Origin: Amycolatopsis sp. FDAARGOS 1241
Lineage (GTDB): Bacteria > Actinomycetota > Actinomycetes > Mycobacteriales > Pseudonocardiaceae
Direction of reading: 5' to 3'
DNA length: 64,000 bases
Assembly (NCBI RefSeq): GCF_016889705.1
Contig: NZ_CP069526.1
Span: forward strand, 3,348,001 to 3,412,000
The position numbers were made by a program, and so were the translations under genes. The notes below the pieces were generated by a model. It was not told the DNA's origin. It was given only the letters and a program-made list of their open reading frames with translations, and did no database searches. Each line of letters opens with the position of its first letter. Position 1 is the stretch's first letter. Shown here piece by piece: positions 43,670 to 55,189 of the stretch.

Positions 43670-44599
43670 ATGGCGAGCGGGAAGCGGATCCTCGTGGTGG
43701 GCGCCGGTGCGACCGGCGGGTTCTTCGGCGGCCGGCTGCACCAGGCCGGGCGCGACGTGACGTTCCTGGTGCGCCCGCGGCGGGCGAAGCTCCTGGCGGA
43801 GCGCGGCCTGCGCATCACGGGCCTCGGCGAGGAGACGGTGCTGACGCCGAACCTCGTCGAAGCGGACCGGCTGACCGGGCCCTACGACCTCGTGCTGTTC
43901 ACGGTCAAGGCGGCCGGGCTCGAGCAGGCCGCCGCGGACGTGGCGCCGGCCGTCGGCCCGCGCACCCTCGTGCTGCCCGTGCTCAACGGCATGCGCCACG
44001 TCGACGTGCTCACCGCGCGCTTCGGCGAGGAGCGTGTACTCGGCGGCGTCGCGATCGTCGCGACCACTGTGGACGGTTCCGGTGACATCCGGCGGCTCGT
44101 CGACATGCAGTCGCTCACCTACGGCGCCCGCAGCGAGTCGGCCCCGCCCGAGCTCGCCGACGTGCACGCACTGCTCTCGGACGCCGGCTTCCCCACGGCG
44201 CTGGCACCGGACATCACGTCGCAGATGTGGGCGAAGTGGGCCTTCATCGCGTCGATCGGCGCGGTGACCGCGCTCATGCGCGGCACCGTCGGCGACGTCG
44301 CCGGGCAGCCCGGCGGGATCGCCTTCGCCGACGCCGTCGTCGCCGAGTGCGCAGCTGTCGCGGAGGCGGCCGGCCACCCCGTGGCGGCGCCCGCGCTCGA
44401 GAACGCCCGCGCGACCGTCACCGAGATCGGCTCGCCCCGTGCGCCGTCGTTGTACCGGGACCTCACTTCCGGCCGACCCGTGGAAGGCGAGCAGATCTTC
44501 GGCGACCTCGTCGACCGCGCCCACGCGCTCGGCGTCTCCGTGCCGCTGCTCGAACTCGTGCGGCTCAACCTGCGCGTGTACCAGTCGCGCCTCGGCTGA
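43670..44599 (+). CDS. 2-dehydropantoate 2-reductase family protein
   Basis: This 309-residue NADPH enzyme has the ketopantoate reductase fold. The dinucleotide motif is VVGAGATGGFFGGRL at the start, followed by the conserved VLFTVKAAGLEQAAADVAP and the catalytic-lysine helix region MWAKWAFIASIGAVTALMRG (KW at about 197). The usual activity is reduction of ketopantoate to pantoate in coenzyme A synthesis, but paralogues act on other 2-oxo acids, and no pan gene is adjacent. ATG 43670 was chosen over an upstream GTG-type start because it opens directly onto the Rossmann strand. Confidence 0.88.
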   Translation: MASGKRILVVGAGATGGFFGGRLHQAGRDVTFLVRPRRAKLLAERGLRITGLGEETVLTPNLVEADRLTGPYDLVLFTVKAAGLEQAAADVAPAVGPRTLVLPVLNGMRHVDVLTARFGEERVLGGVAIVATTVDGSGDIRRLVDMQSLTYGARSESAPPELADVHALLSDAGFPTALAPDITSQMWAKWAFIASIGAVTALMRGTVGDVAGQPGGIAFADAVVAECAAVAEAAGHPVAAPALENARATVTEIGSPRAPSLYRDLTSGRPVEGEQIFGDLVDRAHALGVSVPLLELVRLNLRVYQSRLG

Positions 44600-44866
44600 A
44601 CCGCGGTTCGGCGCCCGCCGAAAATTTCCCGGACTCCGGTGAACCGGATCGGTGGCGGCGCACGTGACAGAGGCGGACGGGCGCGAAGGTCGTGCCCGGC
44701 GTGACACGGACGAATGGTCTTTCGGGCACCGGTTCGAGTGGTGATTTCCCGCCACACCAGGACTGCTAGGCTCCGATCAGTGACATCAGCGCCGGTTTTG
44801 GCACTGGTGTCCGGACCGCGGCCCCAGGCCGTGCACGACCCGCCTTGCGGAAGGATGCTCTCGGGT

Positions 44867-45715
44867 ATGGCGGACAGGTTCGAGTTCGTTCTCGACGTCG
44901 TCGAAGCTCTAGTGGTCGGCCAGGCAACCGGCGGGGACATCCGCCAGTACCCGTTGCGGATCGGGACGGTGCCTTCGGATCCGGTGCGCTTCGTCCGCGT
45001 GGCGACGCAGGTCTACCGCGCGATGGAGGACCGCAGGCTCTCCGTGCACGGTGAGCTCAACCCCCACGTTCGCACGGCGTTCGGGTTGCTCGCCCGGCCG
45101 CGGGTTTCCGTGGCGGTGACCGGGATCGACGGTGTCGGCGCAGATATCGCGGTGCTCGCGCTCACCGACGGCCGGCAGGCGCTCGGGATCACGCAGGACC
45201 CCCTCACGGACGAACTCCTCTTCTCCCTCTTCGCGGACGAGAACTTCGTCGAGGTCGTCACCGGCGTGCTGCCGCCGGCCCGCCCGGCGTCCACCGGCAC
45301 CCACACCGTCCGCCGCGAGGCGACGCGCTCGGTGTCGGCGATGACGGCCCGGCGGATGGCCGAAGCGGCGGAGGACGAAGAAGAGACCGACGCATTCGGG
45401 ATGATCGAGGTGCGCGGCACCGTCCAGCCGCGGCGCCCGGACCCCCGCGTGCGGCGGTCGGAAGGCAGCACCGAGGTGCTCGAACGCGTGCTGGCCGCGC
45501 CGCGGCTCGGCGGCGGGCACATCACCGTCTCCGGCATCAGCCGGCGGGGCGAGCGGCTGGCCGCCGATCCGTTGAGCTGGCTCGACACCGCAGACGGCCG
45601 CTACCTGGTCCACACCACCACGGGCGCGTCCGGTGAGCTGAGCGCGCAGTACGTCCCCGCAGGGCGGTCCGAGGTGGCCCGCGCCGTGCAACACGCCATC
45701 GCCGCCGTCTACTGA
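44867..45715 (+). CDS. EspG family type VII secretion chaperone
   Basis: This is a 282-residue protein of the ESX secretion-associated EspG family. These cytosolic chaperones hold PE/PPE-type substrates before export. Family text includes FEFVLDVVEALVVGQATGGD near the start, LSVHGELNPHVRTAFGLLAR and the C-terminal ADGRYLVHTTTGASGELSAQ. ATG 44867 was taken; ATG 44855 four codons upstream abuts the purine run GGAAGG and is also possible. It heads a row of likely secretion substrates, and the PPE-like protein two genes on is its most likely client. Confidence 0.88.
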   Translation: MADRFEFVLDVVEALVVGQATGGDIRQYPLRIGTVPSDPVRFVRVATQVYRAMEDRRLSVHGELNPHVRTAFGLLARPRVSVAVTGIDGVGADIAVLALTDGRQALGITQDPLTDELLFSLFADENFVEVVTGVLPPARPASTGTHTVRREATRSVSAMTARRMAEAAEDEEETDAFGMIEVRGTVQPRRPDPRVRRSEGSTEVLERVLAAPRLGGGHITVSGISRRGERLAADPLSWLDTADGRYLVHTTTGASGELSAQYVPAGRSEVARAVQHAIAAVY

Positions 45716-45746
45716 CGAGCGCGCGGAAGAACGAGGAGGGAGCCCG

Positions 45747-46160
45747 ATGGCCGACGACACGACGCCGGTCCCGGCGACGCGCGAACTGACCCCGCGCCTG
45801 TCCGGAACCGCGCTCAAGCAGCTGGCGGAGTCCGGCAGTTTCGCGGTGGACGACACCACCGGCAACCAGATGATCGAATCGCTCGAGGGTGTGATCGACA
45901 CCCTTCAGTCGCGGTGGGACGCTCTGCAGAAACTGGGCCAGAGCCCGTTGATGTCCGAGACGGCCACCGGCAAGTGGGTGGCGAACCACATGCTCAACAC
46001 GGCCAGCGACGCGCAAGGGCTGCTGACGCAGCTGCAGGCGGCGAAGCAGGAGTTCCCGACGTACGTCGAGGCGATCAAGCTGGCCAAGCAGAACTACCGC
46101 GACAGCGACTCCGCGTCCCGCGACTCGCTGAAGCAGCTCCCCGTCGACGAGCTTTCCTGA
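45747..46160 (+). CDS. Small ESX-like helical protein of the secretion island
   Basis: This is a 137-residue all-helical protein, probably a helical hairpin, starting 31 bases after the EspG gene. It has two long amphipathic stretches (about 33-60 and 72-115) joined near SPLMSETATG, with GKWVANHML and later YVEAIKLAKQNYRDSDS. That size and shape resemble ESX/PE-type partners of PPE proteins, but there is no exact WxG turn or clear YxxxD/E tail (the nearest is YRDSD). It may be the partner of the next gene's product. The ribosome site GAGGAGGGAGCC is strong. Confidence 0.65.
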   Translation: MADDTTPVPATRELTPRLSGTALKQLAESGSFAVDDTTGNQMIESLEGVIDTLQSRWDALQKLGQSPLMSETATGKWVANHMLNTASDAQGLLTQLQAAKQEFPTYVEAIKLAKQNYRDSDSASRDSLKQLPVDELS

Positions 46161-46170
46161 GGAGGACCCC

Positions 46171-48156
46171 GTGTCAACGACCGACTCGTCCACCTCGACG
46201 GTTTCCGACCCGTCGTCGCCGGACTACGACCCGCACAGCCCCTACTACGACGTGACGGCCGATTCGTCGTCCAAGTACTACGTCGGCCCGGTCAAGCCGG
46301 ACGACGTCGCCTCCGGTGATCAGATCCGCGCCGAGGCGACCAAGGAGATCGACGACGAGATCGCCAACGGCTGGCTCGGCCCCACCGTCGACCCGAAGAC
46401 GCGCAACGACAAGATCCAGGACCTCTACGAGCAGAAGCTCGTGGAGTCGAAGGGCGGCCTCAACGACGGCCTGCAGATCCGCCAGACCGGCGGCGCCCCG
46501 ACGACCGACTGGTCGCAGGCGACGCACGAGCAGATGGTGCAGGCGATCACGCAGCAGGCCGACTCGGCGAAGGTCGCCGAGTCATCGGAAGAGTGGGTGC
46601 GCGTCGGCAATGAGCTGGCGACGCACCAGCAGAACCTGGCGAAGGCGATCAGCGCGAGCACCTCGAACTGGCAGGGCGCGGGCGGTGACGCCGCGCGCGA
46701 GCACCTCGCGAACGTCGGCAAGTGGCTCGGCACCACGGCCCAGGGCGCGACCCTCACCGGCCGGCAGCAGGAGATCCACTCCCAGGCGCTGAACGAGACG
46801 CAGATCGCGATGGCGGCCAATCCGCCCGTGCAGTTCGACCTGCAGCAGGCCAACCAGCAGCTCCAACAGATCACCGACCCCGCCGAGTACGCCGCCGCGG
46901 CGGGGAAGGCCATGGCGACCTACACGGAGCAGCAGGCCGCGCGAGGCCAGGCGGCCCAGATCATGACGCAGTACGACAACACGATCGGCGCGGCCGTCGT
47001 GACGCCGCAGTTCGCCGCGCCGCCGAAGCTGCCGGGCTCCGCCGGCGCCGGTGGGGCCGGCGGCGGTGCGGGTGGCGCCGGCGGCGGCGCGGGCGGTGCC
47101 GGTGGTGCGGGCGGGGGAGCCGGTGGCGCCGGTGGGGCCGACGCGTTCTCGGCCGGCGGCGGCCCTGGTGGCGGTGCGCTCGGTGGCGGTGCGCTCGGTG
47201 GTGGCGCTGGTGGCGGTGCCGGTGCTGCCGGGGGCGGTGCCGGTGCTGCCGGGGGCGGTGCCGGCGGGACCGGAGGTGGTGCCGGTGGTGGTGCGGGCTT
47301 CACCCCGCCGCCGCTCAACGTGCCGGACGGTCCCGGGGGCAGTGGCTTCTCCGGCTCCGGAGCGGGCGGCGGTGCCGGTGGCGGCGCAGGGGGCGGTTCG
47401 GGCTTCACTCCGCCTCCGCTCAACGTGCCCGACGGCCCGAACGGCAGCGGGTTCGGCGGGGGCGGAGGCGTCGGTACCGGCGGATTCGGCGGCGGTGGTG
47501 GCGACGACACCACGAAGGCCTCGAGCTTCACACCGCCTCCACTGAACGTTCCGGACGGCCCGGGTGGCGGCGGTCTTGGCGGTGGTTCGGGCTTCAACCC
47601 GCCTCCGCTGAACGTGCCCGGCGGTCCCGGGGGCAGCGGCCTGGGTGGTGGCTCGGGTTCGGGCGCCGGCTTCACACCGCCGCCGTTCAACCCGGGCACC
47701 GGAGTCAGCGGCAGTTCGCTCGGTGGTTCGAGCGGCGGCCTCGGCGGGGGCTCGGGCAAGATCCCGACCATCGGCCGCGGTGGTGGTGTCAACGGCGAGA
47801 GCATCAGCAGCCGCCTCGGCGGTGGCGGTGGTGGGATCGGCGGTGGCGGCGGCATCAAGGGCGCCGGTCTCGGTGGTTCGGGCGCCGCGTCGGGTGCTGC
47901 GAGCGGTACCGGCGCCACGGCTGAGGAGGAGCTCGCCGCCCGCGGCGGTGCCGGTGCGGCCGGTGCCAAGGGCGCGGCCGGTTCGCCCGGCATGGGCGGC
48001 ATGGGTGCGGCCGGCCGGGGTGGCGGCAAGGGCCAGGAGGACAAGGAGCACAAGACGGCCGACTACGTGGAGTCGGACGACCCGAGCTTCTTCGCCGCCG
48101 ACGAGGTCGTCGCACCTCCGGTGATCGGCGACTGGAAGAACAAGGACTGGAAGTGA
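46171..48156 (+). CDS. PPE-like type VII secretion substrate with Gly-rich and PPPLNVP repeats
   Basis: This 661-residue protein has a helical N-terminal domain and a long low-complexity tail. In the helical part (about 60-285) the segment STSNWQGAGGDAAREHL carries a W-x-G-type turn between two helices, as in WXG100/PPE substrates. From about 290 it is mostly Gly/Ala, then five units built on G-F-T-P-P-P-L-N-V-P-D-G-P-G (about residues 377, 411, 451, 474 and 502), the last shortened to FTPPPFNPG. An acidic C-terminus (ESDDPSFFAADEV) follows. GTG 46171 is preceded by GAGGAGG. It is likely exported with help from the adjacent EspG; an outer-surface or cell-wall role is inferred. Confidence 0.75.
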   Translation: MSTTDSSTSTVSDPSSPDYDPHSPYYDVTADSSSKYYVGPVKPDDVASGDQIRAEATKEIDDEIANGWLGPTVDPKTRNDKIQDLYEQKLVESKGGLNDGLQIRQTGGAPTTDWSQATHEQMVQAITQQADSAKVAESSEEWVRVGNELATHQQNLAKAISASTSNWQGAGGDAAREHLANVGKWLGTTAQGATLTGRQQEIHSQALNETQIAMAANPPVQFDLQQANQQLQQITDPAEYAAAAGKAMATYTEQQAARGQAAQIMTQYDNTIGAAVVTPQFAAPPKLPGSAGAGGAGGGAGGAGGGAGGAGGAGGGAGGAGGADAFSAGGGPGGGALGGGALGGGAGGGAGAAGGGAGAAGGGAGGTGGGAGGGAGFTPPPLNVPDGPGGSGFSGSGAGGGAGGGAGGGSGFTPPPLNVPDGPNGSGFGGGGGVGTGGFGGGGGDDTTKASSFTPPPLNVPDGPGGGGLGGGSGFNPPPLNVPGGPGGSGLGGGSGSGAGFTPPPFNPGTGVSGSSLGGSSGGLGGGSGKIPTIGRGGGVNGESISSRLGGGGGGIGGGGGIKGAGLGGSGAASGAASGTGATAEEELAARGGAGAAGAKGAAGSPGMGGMGAAGRGGGKGQEDKEHKTADYVESDDPSFFAADEVVAPPVIGDWKNKDWK

Positions 48157-48163
48157 GGCGGCG

Positions 48164-48655
48164 ATGACGAGCGGCAGCGGATTCGAAGTCGAGCCCGACG
48201 AGCTGGTGGCGCACGCCAGCCACCTCGACGGTCTCACCGACCGGCTGAACAACGCGGTGCAGGCGGCGGACTACGCGTTGAGCGATGACGCGTACGGCCT
48301 GCTCTGCGCGTTCCTCCCGCCGATCGTGAACCCGACGGGACAGCAGGCCAAGGACACGGTGAGCGCCGCGGCCGAGGGCATGCAGACGACGGCGGACAAC
48401 GTCCGCACGGCGGCGCAGGGCTATCGCGACCGTGATGAGTCCCAGGCCCAGCCCTTCCTGCGGTCGCTCAGCAACAGCGACGACGCGGCGGGCCTCTCGA
48501 GTGACGGCGAGCCGGCGACTCTGCGGCGCGCCAGCGTGGGCACCTCGGCGGGCGACTCGTCCGGCGTCGACCCGTCGCGGTTCCGCATCGGCACGACGGT
48601 TCAGGAGCCGGCGGCGGACCCGTCGTCGTTCCGCATCGGCACGGTCACCGAGTAG
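48164..48655 (+). CDS. EspC-like ESX secretion-associated protein
   Basis: This 163-residue protein has an N-terminal helical hairpin like EspC/DUF2580 type VII substrates: FEVEPDELVAHASHLDGLTD, then a long helix, and TVSAAAEGMQTTADNVRTAA with YRDRDES, where Y-R-D-R-D resembles the YxxxD/E export signal. The tail from about 105 contains two FRIGT units (SRFRIGTTVQEP, SSFRIGTVTE). It starts 7 bases after the PPE-like gene, and a 12-base hairpin follows its stop. It is a probable secreted partner or effector. Confidence 0.8.
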   Translation: MTSGSGFEVEPDELVAHASHLDGLTDRLNNAVQAADYALSDDAYGLLCAFLPPIVNPTGQQAKDTVSAAAEGMQTTADNVRTAAQGYRDRDESQAQPFLRSLSNSDDAAGLSSDGEPATLRRASVGTSAGDSSGVDPSRFRIGTTVQEPAADPSSFRIGTVTE

Positions 48656-48670
48656 GGACCGGCCCTGATC

Positions 48671-48703
48671 GTGGCGCCGGGCGGCTGAGCGGCCCGGCGC
48701 CAC
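48671..48703 (+). terminator. Hairpin ending the first transcript of the secretion island
   Basis: Arms GTGGCGCCGGGC and GCCCGGCGCCAC pair perfectly over 12 bases with a 9-base loop, 16 bases after the EspC-like stop. Confidence 0.7.
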
Positions 48704-48746
48704 ACGCAGTTTCGAAGCAGGAAGCAGATCGAGGAGTACGAGCGTC

Positions 48747-49343
48747 ATGACCAGTGCGGGAGGGTTGGGTGACCTGATCAGGGACCCCGACGAGGCGATC
48801 CGGCGGATGGACGAGTGGGCGGCCGGGTTCGCCCGCAAGGCCGAGCGCTACGCGGCCGCCCAGCAGGAAACGGAACGGCTGCGCCTCACGGCGTCGAGCC
48901 CCGACGGCACCGTCAAGGTCACCGTCGGTGCCGACGGCGTGGTGTCCGACCTGGTCTTCGGGTCGAAGACGCGGACGATGCCGCCGGAGGAGCTGGCGCG
49001 CATGGTGCTGACCACCATGCGCCGCGCCCAGGCGGGCATCACCGAGCGCGTCGCCGAGGTCATGACCGAGAACCTCGGCGACGAGGACCAGGAAACCCGC
49101 ACCGCGCTGCTTTCCAACCTCAGCAGCCGTTTCCCGGACCCCGACGAGCCCGAAGACGGTCCCGGCGAAGAACCGGCACCTCCGGTTCCTCCGGTTCCTC
49201 CGGTGCCGCCGGCACCGTCGGGTGGCGCGGCCACTCCGCCGCCGGCCGGTGGCGCGACTCCGCCTGCCGCCCCGCCCTCGGCGCCGCCTTCGCGCCGGCC
49301 GGGTGGGGTTGATCCGGACGAGCAGGACAACAACCCCTGGTGA
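48747..49343 (+). CDS. YbaB/EbfC family protein with Pro-rich tail
   Basis: This is a 198-residue protein whose N-terminal two-thirds match the YbaB/EbfC fold: a long helix (about 12-45), strands around SPDGTVKVTVGADGVVSDLV and a last helix with MVLTTMRRAQAGITERVAEV. YbaB proteins bind DNA, but in actinobacterial ESX loci similar proteins (EspL-like) act with secretion genes. The tail from about 130 is Pro/Gly-rich with PPVPPVPPVPPAP and an acidic end. It lies between two hairpins, so it is probably its own transcript within the island. Confidence 0.82.
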   Translation: MTSAGGLGDLIRDPDEAIRRMDEWAAGFARKAERYAAAQQETERLRLTASSPDGTVKVTVGADGVVSDLVFGSKTRTMPPEELARMVLTTMRRAQAGITERVAEVMTENLGDEDQETRTALLSNLSSRFPDPDEPEDGPGEEPAPPVPPVPPVPPAPSGGAATPPPAGGATPPAAPPSAPPSRRPGGVDPDEQDNNPW

Positions 49344-49350
49344 TCACCTC

Positions 49351-49384
49351 GTGGCGTCAGGCCGCTCCGCCGGCCTGACGCCAC
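49351..49384 (+). terminator. Hairpin after YbaB-like gene
   Basis: Arms GTGGCGTCAGGCCG and CGGCCTGACGCCAC pair perfectly over 14 bases with a 6-base loop, starting 8 bases after the YbaB-like stop. Confidence 0.75.
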
Positions 49385-49471
49385 GGCATCGATGACTTCA
49401 CAGCTGCGCCGTGCACCCGTTCGAGCGGCCCGCCTGCGCGTCGGCTGAACACGAATGGAATGGGGAAACGC

Positions 49472-52400
49472 GTGAGCAATCCGTTGATTGCGCCGACGGT
49501 CGATTCGACGAAGGCGTATTCCGGGATTTCGCTGTTGGAGACGGCGAACGATCTGTCGTCGGCGATCGAGTCGGGGGACTGGGCGTCGGTGGCGATGGGT
49601 GCGGTCGGCACCGCGCTGGATGCGCTCTCGGTGGCGATGGATCCGTTCGGGGCGATTCTGGCTGCGGGTGTGTCGTGGTTGATGGAGCACGTCGGCCCGC
49701 TCAAGGACGCGCTCAACGGGTTGACGGGGAATGCGGATCAGATCAAGGCGCAGTCGGAGACGTGGGCGAATGTCGCCAAGGAGCTGGGCAGCGTTGCGGA
49801 TGATCTGAACAGCGCGGTGAGTTCGGATCTGCAGGCCTGGTCGGGGGATGCGTCGGATGCGTATCGGCAGCGGGCGCAGGATCTGGGCACGACGTTGCAG
49901 GCGGCGCAGAAGGGCTGTGAGGGCGCGTCGTCCGGGGTGAAGACCGCGGGTGAGGTCGTGGCGGCGGTGCGGACGCTGGTGCGCGACATCATTTCGGAGC
50001 TGGTCGGGCATTTGATCAGTTGGGCGTTGCAGGTGGTGTTCACCCTCGGTGTCGGGTTGGCGTGGGTGGTGCCTCAGGTGGTCAGCGCGGTCGCCAAGAC
50101 CGCTTCGCAGATCACCTCGATCGTGACGAAGCTGGTGAAGGCGCTCAAGGCGCTGATCCCGTTGTTGAAGAAGGCCGGGACGCTGTTCGAGGACGCCGGT
50201 AAGGCGTTGAAGGGCCTCAAGGGTGGCAAGGTCTCGTCGGCGGGCAAGGGTGGCGACGTCGGCGGCATGCCGAAGGACCCGCCCAAGCCCGTCGGTGGTG
50301 GTGGGGGCACCCCGAAGGGCGGGGGCGACGGTGCGCCACCACCGGCCAAGTCGGGGGGTGATGACTCCACGCACTCCTCCAGCGCCGGTGGCGGGGGCAG
50401 CCACGGCGGTGGCGGCACCCCGCCCCCGAAGACCGAGGCGCCAGCGCCTCCGAAGACCGACACCGGTGACGGTCCGACGGTGACTTCCGGTGCGGGTGGA
50501 GGCGGTGCTCCGAAGGGCGGCGGTTCCTCCGGCCCCAAGTCGCCGGGCAAGGTGCCGGACAAGCCGGAACCCCCGCGCGACCGTTCGGTGGGCACCGACA
50601 ACCGCGTGTGCGAGTCGGACCCGGTCGACATCGCGACCGGTGACGTCGTGATGACCCAGGTGGACCTCCTCATGCCGGGTCTTCCGGAGTTGGCGCTGGA
50701 GCGCACGCACATCTCCTCCTACCGGGCCGGCCGGGTGTTCGGTTCGACGTGGTCGTCTACTTTGGACCAGCGGATCGAGTTCGACGACGAGCACGCTTGC
50801 TACTTCTCGGCGGACGGCATGATCCTCGTGTACCCGTTGCCGCGCGCCGGTGAGGCCGTGTTGCCGGTCGAGGGTCCGCGGTTGCCGCTCGTCGCGACCG
50901 AGGCTGGGTACCGGCTGGCCGACCCGCTGCAGCAGGTGAGCCTCGAATTCGCCGCGGTGCCGGGCGCCCGCCGTGGCCTGGTTCCGCTGGTGGCGATCGA
51001 GCACGAGTCCGGCGAGCGGATCGACCTGCAGTACGGTCCGTCCGCGGTGCCGGTCGGGCTGAGCCGCTCCGACGGCCGGGCTGTCCGGCTACTGAGCGAG
51101 GGGGGACGGATCACCGCGATCGAGGTCGCCGACGGCGACGCCTCGGTGTCGGTGGCGAAATTCGGGTACAACCGGTTCGGCCAGCTGACGAAGGTCGCGA
51201 ACTCGTCGGGCCTGCCTGCGGGGTACGACTACGACGTGCACGGCCGCATGGTCGGGTGGCAGGACCGGACGGGTACCTGGTACCGCTACGTCTACGACGC
51301 CGACGGCCGCTGCGTGCGCACGGTCGGTCCGCAGGGCTTCTACAGCGGGTCGTTCGCCTACGACCGTGAGCGTTTGATCACGCGTTACTCGGACTCGCTG
51401 GGCAACGTTACGGAATACCACCTCAACGAGGCCAACCAGATGCTGCGCCGCGTCGACCCGCTGGGGAGCGTGACGGGTTTCGTGTGGGACCGCTACGACC
51501 GGCTGCTGGAGAGCGTCGACCCGCTGGGGCACACGACTGCCTACTCCTACGACGAGTACGGTGCGCTGGTCTCGGTGACCCGTCCCGACGGTTCCGTCGT
51601 CGAGGTGAGCGGGGGTGGAACCGGACTGACCATCACCGTCCGGGACGGCGACCGGCACTGGAGCCGCACCTACACGGGCGAGAACGTGCCCGACCCGCTG
51701 ATCGACCCGGTCGGCGTGTCGGCCTCGTTGAGCTACACGGAGCTGATCGACCGGCAGAACGCCGCACCGGAGGTGGCGGCCGCCGGCGCAGGAGCACCCG
51801 CCGACACTGACCCGGCGGGCCAGTCGGAGCCGCGCGACGTGTTCGGCCGCGTGACCACAATGCTCAACCGCTCGCGGCGGCCGGTCCGGCTCGGCTGGAC
51901 CGTCGAGGGCGAGGAAAACCTGAGGGTCCATCCGTCCGGGGCTCGTGAGGCGCGGCGGTACGACCCCGAGGGCAACGAGGTCGAGCACGTCAACGGCGCT
52001 GGGTTCGTGACCCGGACCGAGTACGGGCCGTTCGGGTTGCGAACGGCGTCGATCGACGCCTCCGGTGCGAGGACCACCTACGCCTACGACACCGAGCTTC
52101 GGCTCACCACGGTCACCAACCCGCTGGGGTTGCAATGGACCTACCGCCACGACGCGGTAGGCCGGCTGGTGGAAGAGGTCGACTTCGACGGGCGCGTGCT
52201 GCGGTTCGACTACGACCGCGCCGGGCGCCTGGTCCGGTCGGTCAACGGAGCCGGTGACCGGACCGAGTACGTCTACGACCAGCTCGGCAACGTCCTCGAA
52301 CGGCGGACTCCGACGGGGACGACCCGCTACTCGTACGATCCGGTGGGACGGATGATCCACGCCACAATCGGCGACGTCGAGCTGCGGATCGAGTACGCCG

Positions 52401-54505
52401 CCGACGGCACGTTGCTCAGTGAGACCGTCGACGGTCGAACGGTGACCACCAGCCGAGACCAGAACGGCGCGACGGTCCGGCGTACGCCTTCCGGAGTGGA
52501 GAGCGTGTGGCGCTTCGACACCGCGGGCAATCCTGATGCGCTGACGGTCGGCAGGCACTCCGTCGAGTTCAGCCACGACGAAGGTGGCCGCGAAATCGTT
52601 CGGACGGTCGACGGCCGGGTGGTTGTCTCGCAGGCCTTCGACGGCGACGAGAACTTGGTCGAGCAGTCCGTGCGGACCGCCGAATCCGAGCGAAGCCGCC
52701 GGTTCACCTACCGGAGCGACGGGTTCCTCACTGGGATCGACGACGAGGTCGCCGGCCCGACGCGGCTGCTGCTCGACGCGATCGGCCGGGTCGTGGAACT
52801 GCAGACGACGCAAGGCGACCGGCACTACCGCTACGACGACCTCGGCAACGTGACCGAGTCTGGCGAGCCGGTGGCCGCAGCCACCACCGGGATCCGGCGC
52901 TACGCCGGGAATGCTCTGGTGGCCGCGGGTGCCACGGAATACGAGCACGACCTGCAGGGGCGGGTGGTATCGCGCCGCGAAGGCGACCGGGTGTGGCGCT
53001 ACACCTGGGACGCGCACGATCGGCTGGTCGGACTGCTGACGCCCGACGGCAGCCGGTGGAGCTACCGCTACGACCCCGTGGGGCGCCGCATCGGCAAGCA
53101 GCGGCTGGTGGCCGCCGCAGGGTCGTGGCACGTCACCGAGAGTTTCGTCTTCACCTGGAGCGGCTCACAACTGGTGGAGCAGAGCCACACCAACGAGGCG
53201 GGGCGGCAGGTCATCACCACCTGGGAATACCACCCGAAGGACGACCGCCCGATCCTGCAGCTCGGCCAGCCGTCCACTGTGGACGAGGAGTTCTTCTCCA
53301 TCGTCACCGATCTGCTTGGTACTCCGACGGAGCTTCTCGACGCCGATGGGGCCACGGCGTGGCGCGACAGCGTCGGGCTGTGGGACCGGTCGGGCGGCAC
53401 GGCGCTCACGCCGCTGCGCTTCCCCGGCCAGTACGCGGATGCCGAATCGGGCCTGCACTACAACGTCTACCGATACTACGATCCGGCTACCGGCCGCTAC
53501 CTGAGCCAGGACCCGCTCGGCCTCGGGCCCGCCGAGAATCCCGCCGCCTACGTCCCCAACCCGTTCGCGGCCTGCGACCCCCTGGGTCTCGCGGCGAAGA
53601 AGGGCGGCTGCGGCGCCGGCGGTTCCGGCAAGGGCAAGACGCCCGACCGGCCCGGCGGCGGTGGAGACGTCAGCAAGGTCCCGGACACGAAGGGCAAGGG
53701 CGCGGCAAACGGCACCCACCCGGCGGGAGCCGAACCCGGCATGCCCAGCGCGTCGTCTTCGTCGGGGACGAGGCAGCCGACGCACGCCTACCACAACCTC
53801 GATGGCACCGGTTACCACACGGCCGGCCAGAACATGTTCAACCAGTACTACCCGCCGGCCAAGCCCGGCTGGCCGGGCCGGCCGAACGATCTCGGCGGCG
53901 CGATCCCGTCCACGAGTTCGTCCGCGCACAATCCCTACATCCCGGCGAACGCCACACAGCGGCCGCCGACACACCCGGCCGTGATCGACCCCAATGGACC
54001 GGGCCCCTCGGTGCACGCCGGGCACGGTACGCCCCAAGCGCAGCAGCAGTTCCTGGACACGCACTTCCCCAACCACGGCCAGATCAACCCGAACTTCGGT
54101 ACGAACCAGGGGTACGGTCTGAACTGCAACCAGTGCATCGTCAGCGTGGACGCGGTGAACGCGGGTCACCCCGTCACGCACGCGCCGCCGATGTCGTCCG
54201 GCTCCTTCGCCGGCACCGAGTTCCTGAAGAACAAATACGGCGGAACGGAATACCACAACACCACTTACGGCGAAATCACGCAGAAGATCACCCAGCAAGG
54301 TGGCGCCGGAGTCGTCTACATCAACCGGCCGCCCGCCGGTGGCTTGCCCGGTTCGGCACACGTGTTCAACGTCGTGCACCACCCGCAGTACGGTGCGGTC
54401 TATCTTGACGGGCAGACGGGCAAGCTGGCCAACCTCGAGGCGTTGACCCACCAGGGCGGTGCGGTCGACCGGGTCGATCTCATGCACTACTTCCCGAACT
54501 ACTAG
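49472..54505 (+). CDS. Rhs polymorphic toxin with ESX-type N-terminus and papain-fold (Tox-PL) C-terminus
   Basis: This is a 1,677-residue modular toxin. Residues 1-190 form a helical ESX-like trafficking region with W-x-G (LQAWSGDASDAY), then a hydrophobic stretch (about 175-205), a Gly/Pro/Lys linker (about 250-370), a DUF6531-like entry (VCESDPVDIATGDVVMTQVD) and many YD/Rhs repeats to the core YYDPATGRYLSQDPLGL near 1350. After a variable linker (1375-1500) the C-terminus has GLNCNQCIVSVDAV (Cys1552 and Cys1555), SAHVFNVVHH (His1630) and VYLDGQTGKL (Asp1646), matching the Cys-His-Asp pattern of Tox-PL, a papain-fold toxin family predicted to deamidate glutamine. GTG 49472 was chosen; ATG 49460 is also in frame. 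The immunity gene follows. Confidence 0.9.
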   Translation: MSNPLIAPTVDSTKAYSGISLLETANDLSSAIESGDWASVAMGAVGTALDALSVAMDPFGAILAAGVSWLMEHVGPLKDALNGLTGNADQIKAQSETWANVAKELGSVADDLNSAVSSDLQAWSGDASDAYRQRAQDLGTTLQAAQKGCEGASSGVKTAGEVVAAVRTLVRDIISELVGHLISWALQVVFTLGVGLAWVVPQVVSAVAKTASQITSIVTKLVKALKALIPLLKKAGTLFEDAGKALKGLKGGKVSSAGKGGDVGGMPKDPPKPVGGGGGTPKGGGDGAPPPAKSGGDDSTHSSSAGGGGSHGGGGTPPPKTEAPAPPKTDTGDGPTVTSGAGGGGAPKGGGSSGPKSPGKVPDKPEPPRDRSVGTDNRVCESDPVDIATGDVVMTQVDLLMPGLPELALERTHISSYRAGRVFGSTWSSTLDQRIEFDDEHACYFSADGMILVYPLPRAGEAVLPVEGPRLPLVATEAGYRLADPLQQVSLEFAAVPGARRGLVPLVAIEHESGERIDLQYGPSAVPVGLSRSDGRAVRLLSEGGRITAIEVADGDASVSVAKFGYNRFGQLTKVANSSGLPAGYDYDVHGRMVGWQDRTGTWYRYVYDADGRCVRTVGPQGFYSGSFAYDRERLITRYSDSLGNVTEYHLNEANQMLRRVDPLGSVTGFVWDRYDRLLESVDPLGHTTAYSYDEYGALVSVTRPDGSVVEVSGGGTGLTITVRDGDRHWSRTYTGENVPDPLIDPVGVSASLSYTELIDRQNAAPEVAAAGAGAPADTDPAGQSEPRDVFGRVTTMLNRSRRPVRLGWTVEGEENLRVHPSGAREARRYDPEGNEVEHVNGAGFVTRTEYGPFGLRTASIDASGARTTYAYDTELRLTTVTNPLGLQWTYRHDAVGRLVEEVDFDGRVLRFDYDRAGRLVRSVNGAGDRTEYVYDQLGNVLERRTPTGTTRYSYDPVGRMIHATIGDVELRIEYAADGTLLSETVDGRTVTTSRDQNGATVRRTPSGVESVWRFDTAGNPDALTVGRHSVEFSHDEGGREIVRTVDGRVVVSQAFDGDENLVEQSVRTAESERSRRFTYRSDGFLTGIDDEVAGPTRLLLDAIGRVVELQTTQGDRHYRYDDLGNVTESGEPVAAATTGIRRYAGNALVAAGATEYEHDLQGRVVSRREGDRVWRYTWDAHDRLVGLLTPDGSRWSYRYDPVGRRIGKQRLVAAAGSWHVTESFVFTWSGSQLVEQSHTNEAGRQVITTWEYHPKDDRPILQLGQPSTVDEEFFSIVTDLLGTPTELLDADGATAWRDSVGLWDRSGGTALTPLRFPGQYADAESGLHYNVYRYYDPATGRYLSQDPLGLGPAENPAAYVPNPFAACDPLGLAAKKGGCGAGGSGKGKTPDRPGGGGDVSKVPDTKGKGAANGTHPAGAEPGMPSASSSSGTRQPTHAYHNLDGTGYHTAGQNMFNQYYPPAKPGWPGRPNDLGGAIPSTSSSAHNPYIPANATQRPPTHPAVIDPNGPGPSVHAGHGTPQAQQQFLDTHFPNHGQINPNFGTNQGYGLNCNQCIVSVDAVNAGHPVTHAPPMSSGSFAGTEFLKNKYGGTEYHNTTYGEITQKITQQGGAGVVYINRPPAGGLPGSAHVFNVVHHPQYGAVYLDGQTGKLANLEALTHQGGAVDRVDLMHYFPNY

Positions 54506-54527
54506 CCGAAGCAAGGGGACTTTCGAG

Positions 54528-54866
54528 GTGGAGGGTATTTCGATCATGGACCGGGACAACGCGCTGGCGGCGGCACGGGCGCTACTGGACCAGGAAACCG
54601 CCGCGATTCCTGAGGACTCCCCGTTTCACGACATGGTGATCCGGGACGAGCAGGTCGTGCAGCATCCGGCCGGCTGGCTGGTGCCGTTCAACACCAGGCG
54701 GTACCTGGAGACCGAGGACTTCGCCGTGGCCGCGGTGCCCAACCTGGTCATGGTGCCCGGCGACGGCTCGCCCGCGCACTTCCCACCCAGCGCGGTTCCG
54801 GTCGACCGCTACCTGGAGGCGGTCACCGCGGGCGAGATCGGCTGGGGGCAGCTGCCTCAGACCTGA
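54528..54866 (+). CDS. Imm35 (YrhB)-like immunity protein
   Basis: This is a 112-residue soluble protein directly after the toxin (22 bases). It has the shape of the Imm35/YrhB immunity family: an opening helix NALAAARALLDQETAAIPED, then strands VIRDEQVVQHPAGWLVPFNT with the GW-x-[VP]-F core, RRYLETEDFAVAAVPNLVMV and the closing VDRYLEAVTAGEIGW. Imm35 members are repeatedly found beside Tox-PL toxins, so family and position support each other. It should bind the toxin's papain-fold domain and protect the producer. GTG 54528 has AAGGGGAC upstream; ATG 54546 with GGAGGG is an equally good start. Confidence 0.82.
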   Translation: MEGISIMDRDNALAAARALLDQETAAIPEDSPFHDMVIRDEQVVQHPAGWLVPFNTRRYLETEDFAVAAVPNLVMVPGDGSPAHFPPSAVPVDRYLEAVTAGEIGWGQLPQT

Positions 54867-55139
54867 CCCTGCTCGGATCGCGGGTATGGACAAATTCGCG
54901 GTGATCACCAGGCCCGGGGCGACGAGACATCGCTTCAGGGGCCGGCCGAGAAACTGGCCCCGCGCCGTGGGCGCGGCCTGGGATCGGCCCGAGCCGCCAG
55001 TGGAACCAGGACAAAGGAAAAGGTTTCGGCTACCACGCGAACCCCCGAAAACAACGCGTGGTAGAAGAAAACAGGCAGCAAGATCGCGAAGCAGCACGGT
55101 CTGGGCTGATTACCCGGCTGATTTGTCGGGCGACTGAGT

Positions 55140-55166
55140 CCGGCTGCGGGTGTGCCCCGCAGCCGG
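55140..55166. terminator. Bidirectional terminator between immunity and nitroreductase genes
   Basis: Arms CCGGCTGCGGG and CCCGCAGCCGG form an 11-base stem with a 5-base loop, 23 bases beyond the nitroreductase stop on the minus strand. The other bases of the 323-base gap (54867-55189) contain no convincing gene; an 83-codon plus-strand reading there lacks support and overlaps this hairpin's region. Confidence 0.7.
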
Positions 55167-55189
55167 CCGTCGCTACGCGCTTGTTTTGG

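Follow-up and report, generated by a model that had tools for sequence, protein, structure and literature searches.

We describe a polymorphic toxin and its candidate antidote encoded on a 64,000-nucleotide stretch of Amycolatopsis sp. FDAARGOS 1241 (contig NZ_CP069526.1), which was analysed as a whole and is referred to here as the window. The toxin joins an N-terminal trunk of the type VII secretion system (T7SS) kind to an Rhs repeat shell and a C-terminal tip with a papain-like Tox-PL domain (PF15644), and an Imm35 protein (PF15567) is encoded directly behind it. Tox-PL and Imm35 very probably form a toxin–immunity pair. We give an even chance to the fuller reading that this is an interbacterial polymorphic toxin, exported by a T7SS, which deamidates a glutamine of its target protein and whose active site Imm35 blocks in the producer. 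The observed part of this reading comprises the architecture, the full catalytic signature, the adjacent Imm35 gene, the ESX genes and the differing tips, with or without Imm35, of sister species. The pairing of Tox-PL1 with Imm35 and the T7SS was already predicted in 2012 (PMC3482391, cited throughout from parts of its text and tables). New here are the Rhs–ESX architecture, the exchange slot, a cassette low in guanine plus cytosine (GC) and a lead to the fold of Imm35.

Architecture of the toxin

From the N- to the C-terminus, Pfam places WXG100_2 (PF25547, about residues 86–204; 32.1 bits against a cut-off of 27), DUF6531 (70.3 against 24.1), nine RHS repeat stretches (PF05593; 173 against 22) and PF15644 (35.0 against 24.1) on the toxin, all above cut-off, and NCBIfam adds Rhs_assc_core (TIGR03696; 72.9 against 32.5). 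Four further Pfam families stay below threshold: WXG100 (PF06013; 23.6 against 27.3), RHS (PF03527; 24.2 against 27.9), PPE (20.2 against 26) and T7SS_signal (PF21725; 16.5 against 27). An in-frame ATG at 49460 lies 12 bases 5' of the GTG start at 49472. The Rhs shell closes with two DPLGL motifs, at residues 1347 and 1369, and self-cleavage is predicted, by analogy, after Leu1373, at its end. The original prediction had described a 1,677-residue protein uniting a W-x-G N-terminus, an Rhs shell and a papain-fold C-terminus, followed 22 bases later by a 112-residue protein of Imm35 pattern. These family matches bear it out, and the two families it proposed to search for, Tox-PL and Imm35, are both found above cut-off (Table 1).

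The tip carries the full NC-H-DxQ signature of its family (N1551, C1552, H1630, D1646 and Q1648). Across 32 aligned Tox-PL domains, N, H and D are invariant, while C and Q occur in at least 90%. Cys1552, Cys1555, His1630 and Asp1646 had all been put forward as papain-fold residues; each is present as stated, but of the two cysteines conservation holds for Cys1552 only, the position of Cys1555 being taken by Asn, Ala, Thr or Gly in many relatives. The structure model of residues 1505–1677 (predicted local distance difference test score, pLDDT, 85.4) has papain-fold proteins as its fold neighbours, so that the domain qualifies as papain-like. A search with residues 1480–1677 recovered only the toxin itself among 719 candidates, which were limited by length. 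The papain-fold toxin/immunity structures 9l5u and 8ssm (CdiA-CT/CdiI) gave no sequence match to the Tox-PL or Imm35 profiles at E 1.

Table 1. Features of the toxin locus (positions in the window)
Feature	Position	Strand	Evidence and remarks
EspG-family gene	44714..45715	+	PF14011, 122.2 bits
137-residue protein	45747..46160	+	No Pfam match; YRDSD at residue 117
PPE-like protein, 661 residues	46171..48156	+	PF00823, 21.7 bits, under cut-off 26
EspC-like protein	48164..48655	+	PF10824, 38.4 bits, cut-off 23.5; YRDRD (YxxxD/E) at residue 87
YbaB/EbfC-family protein	48747..49343	+	PF02575, 43.2 bits, cut-off 25.5; directly upstream of the toxin slot
Polymorphic toxin, 1,677 residues	49472..54505	+	GTG start; Pfam and NCBIfam matches
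N-terminal trunk, residues 1–253	49472..50230	+	WXG100_2 domain; WSG at 123
DUF6531 and Rhs repeat shell	50618..53590	+	PF20148, PF05593, TIGR03696; limits approximate
Segment without DNA match at the orthologous place of G059	53702..55186		Tip, Imm35 gene and the 320 bases after it
Tox-PL / Gln_amidase core (N1551-C1552, H1630, D1646, Q1648)	54122..54424	+	PF15644, 38.3 bits in genome search
Imm35 gene, 112 residues	54528..54866	+	PF15567, 39.6 bits, cut-off 27.5 (Pfam)

Recurrent pairing of Tox-PL with Imm35

Imm35 recurs behind Tox-PL in relatives, which rules out chance adjacency. Among 19 family loci with related tips (L048–L066; 24–42% identical), an Imm35-type gene directly follows the toxin in ten. 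In seven of them it is a small gene immediately 3' of the toxin (L048, L050, L051, L052, L054, L055 and L056; 39–42% identical), and in L063–L065 a longer frame opens with the Imm35 domain, 84 bases past the Tox-PL match. Pfam searches covered five of these seven small genes: those of L048, L050 and L056 exceed the cut-off, that of L051 falls just under it (27.1 against 27.5), and the one in L054, without a Pfam match, is Imm35-like by alignment alone. Imm35 was also above cut-off in small genes of L041 and L002. Proteins of 436 and 422 residues stand behind the toxins of L059 and L062, the former combining Imm35 with Tox-PL according to Pfam, and L058 itself unites the two domains in one protein. 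No Imm35-type gene lies directly behind the toxin in the remaining six (L049, L053, L057, L060, L061 and L066).

Across 80 Amycolatopsis genomes we counted 74 Tox-PL frames, one per open frame and excluding about 40 second matches that fall into frames already counted. For 68 of them an Imm35 domain follows downstream on the same strand at a distance of up to 10 kb, and for 12 of these 68 at up to 1.2 kb. The 82 Imm35 rows used for comparison omit second Imm35 copies at a conserved locus, as well as most of the genomes in which Tox-PL is absent. Since most of the 68 cases look like that one conserved locus, the independent evidence lies in the short-range cases, two of which (G005 and G058) hold both domains in a single frame. 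Six Tox-PL frames are without Imm35 within 10 kb, namely those in G017, G021, G025, G053 and G073 and that in G023, where the contig ends. In the sister species represented by genomes G010 and G059, a trunk without an Rhs shell carries another Tox-PL tip together with an Imm35 gene; for the G059 pair, Pfam gives 30.0 bits for PF15644, 34.1 for Imm35, 26.8 for WXG100_2 (cut-off 27) and no Rhs family. As anatomy, the complete toxin–immunity pair proposed earlier was right; both the identity of the two domains and the pair as a unit are supported.

Several related arrangements were seen alongside these. In the same genome, a second Tox-PL match (G000:C1:1866887-1867573; L002, L042) spans model positions 45–113 only, its N-C half missing, and behind it stands a 146-residue Imm35 (47 bits), an orphan immunity gene related to the G010/G059 type. 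Many Amycolatopsis genomes (e.g., L006, L009 and L037) encode a protein of about 1,700–2,800 residues with two Tox-PL domains and, some kilobases past it, an Imm35-domain protein of about 748 residues, often with another Imm35 protein; at G000:C1:9223865 (L003, L043) in the present genome the 748-residue protein is kept and no Tox-PL match was found. Proteins of about 420–490 residues with Tox-PL plus Imm35 occur in L007, L022, L058 and behind the toxin in L059, and the protein behind the toxin in L062 was judged by eye to hold both domains. A Tox-PL domain may also serve inside an immunity protein, to judge from the two-domain proteins following the toxins of L059 and L062.

The Imm35 protein

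The toxin stop codon and the GTG start of the Imm35 gene (54528) are separated by 22 bases; with the alternative ATG at 54546 the protein would have 106 residues, and neither start is preferred. Proteins 75–86% identical to it are present in the protein collection (P0016, P0018 and P0020), and NCBIfam returned no match for it. A conserved W and [ST] have been given for Imm35 (Zhang et al. 2012, PMC3482391). W106 is invariant across 27 sequences; S81 of DGSPAH is a candidate for the conserved [ST], yet it is Leu in L040 and L041. In the parts of that paper cited here, the text calls Imm35 specific to Tox-PL1 and a possible peptidase inhibitor, whereas the tables pair it also with Ntox40 and the Tox-PL1 row of Table 2 has no immunity protein.

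No relative of Imm35 was found in the PDB by sequence, and its structure model (pLDDT 90.9) had no Foldseek match below E 0.1. The model weakly resembles the YebF and cystatin folds, with cystatins at low Z and YebF ranked above them. It is conceivable, albeit unlikely, that Imm35 acts as a bacterial counterpart of the cystatins: built as a helix lying on a curved sheet, it would plug the papain-fold cleft of Tox-PL1 with its conserved VP-x-DG-[ST]-PAH-x-PP loop, and antidote and target would have travelled as one cassette to the T7SS toxin slot behind EspC–YbaB. If so, actinobacteria would have reached, within a toxin–antidote pair, the same solution against papain-type proteases as animals.

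A variable toxin slot behind YbaB

Comparison of the window with sister species indicates that YbaB is followed by a toxin slot of variable content. Against G059 (L183), DNA identity is 81–84% from 44001 to 53701, including trunk and Rhs shell and interrupted by three short gaps, and 87–89% from 55187 onward; the segment between has no DNA match (Table 1). The G059 ortholog of the Rhs gene, with 83% DNA identity, ends in an unrelated tip, and neither Tox-PL nor Imm35 was found in 16 kb at that place. In G010 (L191), flanks are 81–90% and the trunk 76% identical to the window, the Rhs part aligns only in short pieces, and the tip is again unrelated. G059 and G010 differ from each other in their toxins, although their flanks are 93–94% identical. 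In other species a GNAT acetyltransferase gene comes immediately after YbaB (L209–L214 and L217–L219; Pfam on L211), and in L074, L076, L079 and L085 its counterpart is preceded by a trunk toxin. From gene order rather than aligned DNA, we take these as one site in an empty and a filled state.

Most simply, the tip and the Imm35 gene moved in together as one imported cassette, because the slot is exchanged in sister species, other trunk loci are without both domains and the Tox-PL domain is low in GC. Neither Tox-PL nor Imm35 was found in three paralogue loci of the same genome or in 79 other named trunk loci (profile search, E 0.001), the latter being the best of 112, with three (L130, L133 and L146) ending inside the toxin. 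The GC content of the Tox-PL domain is 64.0%, against 71.4% for the window, which is the 0.3rd percentile of similar-sized stretches.

The trunk is matched in all 80 Amycolatopsis genomes, 72 of the 79 best-matching named loci for the toxin N-terminus come from this genus, and many different tips are found on one trunk. The present genome (9.8 Mb) has ten trunk matches, two of them degenerate and overlapping. With one of its paralogues (L178, same genome) the toxin gene shares 99.3% identity across 956 bases (49473–50428), after which identity drops sharply to 66%; with the orthologous trunk of G059 the figure is 84%. Recent gene conversion of the trunk between toxins with different tips would explain this most simply.

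Export context

Export by an ESX (type VII) system is probable, because the trunk has a WXG100_2 domain and WSG at residue 123, EspG-family, PPE-like, EspC-like and YbaB genes lie upstream, and the genome contains EccB genes (G000:C1:8349312, 385.8 bits; 6876305, 225 bits; a third match is short; the search covered EccB). In ESX systems, EspG acts as a chaperone for PPE proteins. The earlier proposal linked the toxin to type VII secretion and not to type VI, and the WXG100_2 domain, the EspG and EspC-like neighbours and EccB agree with it. Type VI delivery was rejected, as no PAAR or other type VI N-terminal domain was found in the toxin (Pfam, E 0.01).

YxxxD/E is an export motif carried by a T7SS substrate or its partner. 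Residues 1–260 of the toxin are without it, while strings of this form occur by residue 444 and further on in the Rhs region. The EspC-like protein carries it at residues 37 and 87 and the 137-residue protein at residue 117; a partner may supply the motif that the trunk is without. However, two counts weigh against a fixed partnership between the trunk and this module. All five upstream genes are present in just 14 of the 79 trunk loci, and among the 30 best YbaB loci the trunk lies downstream in just seven, the window included (six on a strict count, which leaves out L220 for an overlap of 3 bases). At each of the 30, a match to the EspC-like gene stands next to YbaB, strictly upstream in 25 and overlapping in 5. 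A dedicated EspG–PPE–EspC–YbaB export module is thereby weakened, YbaB being without the trunk in 23 of these loci and most trunk loci being without the module.

Proposed mechanism and alternatives

In the mechanism we propose, the WSG-bearing trunk would pair with a helical partner, for which the EspC-like protein is a good candidate as a carrier of YxxxD/E, and would be exported through an ESX system of this genome. The Rhs shell would enclose the tip and cut itself past the second DPLGL, freeing a 304-residue fragment of linker plus Tox-PL to enter the cytoplasm of a neighbour. There Cys1552, activated by His1630 and Asp1646, would attack a glutamine side chain, and siblings would be protected by the same Imm35.

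Glutamine deamidation by the Tox-PL domain is slightly favoured over peptide cleavage. The preference is plausible from the family name, PF15644 being called a glutamine deamidase, and from a weak match to OspI, the top PDB match of the Tox-PL sequence profile (E 0.0071), whose identity of 16% is the highest among the 50 fold neighbours listed. OspI is, however, one of several papain-fold proteins in the fold comparison, and the top match of the model is the effector SpvD; AvrPphB and staphopain also rank high. These fold matches suit a protease toxin, with the same pair and export route, that would cut a peptide bond and be held by Imm35 as a protease inhibitor. So does the classification of Tox-PL1 as papain-like peptidases, usually secreted by T7SS, with Imm35 as suggested peptidase inhibitor (Zhang et al. 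2012, PMC3482391). Against it, PF15644 and OspI are grouped in one cluster, mostly of deamidases and transglutaminases, in the part of PMC10318531 cited here, although that source also suggests that PF15644 members might act as a releasing peptidase or a poison. On balance, a protease remains a serious but less probable candidate than a deamidase.

An auto-processing or releasing peptidase, which would not be the toxic part, has been proposed for internally placed Tox-PL1 domains (PMC3482391); here Tox-PL forms the very end of the protein, two sister species do not have it at the corresponding site, and an Imm35 gene accompanies it, so that this role is highly improbable. Several of the fold neighbours, namely SpvD, OspI, AvrPphB and YopQ, are effectors acting in eukaryotic cells. 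The present toxin could by that likeness be aimed at eukaryotes such as protists, fungi or plants, the small gene then encoding a chaperone rather than an antidote. The exchange of tip and small gene between sister species, and the many tips per trunk, instead follow the pattern of interbacterial polymorphic toxins, and Imm35-type genes stand behind Tox-PL on different shells; we therefore regard a eukaryotic target as improbable.

Relation to known systems

The closest precedent for the interbacterial toxin favoured here is Tox-PL1/Imm35 itself (PMC3482391), with which it shares, as far as the cited parts of that paper go, the extreme C-terminal position, the NC-H-DxQ signature, WxG (T7SS) delivery in actinobacteria and the Imm35 partner. 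It differs in the Rhs shell between trunk and tip, the mapped exchange slot and the structural lead on Imm35, with no new chemistry. In the open-access literature on Imm35, PF15567 and PF15644, the pairing is treated in PMC3482391 only, a second paper naming PF15644 alone and three others containing the string Imm35 in unrelated contexts; an experimental study may exist in subscription literature. No literature match joined glutamine deamidase, immunity protein and interbacterial, or papain-like CdiA-CT and immunity protein.

OspI, the glutamine deamidase of Ubc13 (PDB 3b21, 4ip3), is injected as an effector and acts on an E2 enzyme of eukaryotes, whereas delivery here would be by another system. 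LXG/WXG polymorphic toxins of the T7SS are alike in combining a helical N-terminus for secretion with an exchangeable toxic C-terminus. An Rhs toxin is reportedly tied to an EssC variant in Listeria; that system is a T7SSb, and the present toxin carries a papain-type tip with Imm35. AaEAS of Amycolatopsis azurea, a T7SS polymorphic toxin according to the cited part of PMC12691689, belongs to the same genus and has an alarmone synthetase as its tip, instead of the papain-type tip and Imm35. The separable tip and adjacent antidote make the present locus well suited to a clean test, for which sister species holding other tips in this slot offer natural controls of sibling killing. Such a test would also reveal what target is modified by an OspI-family toxin from actinobacteria.

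Neighbouring features

The gene for the 137-residue protein is in place in 14 of the 79 trunk loci. Inside the PPE-like gene, several short overlapping matches between 47013 and 47715 suggest internal repeats in the C-terminal part of the protein. Further upstream, between 40540 and 42918, lie two frames of 584 and 206 residues without a Pfam match.
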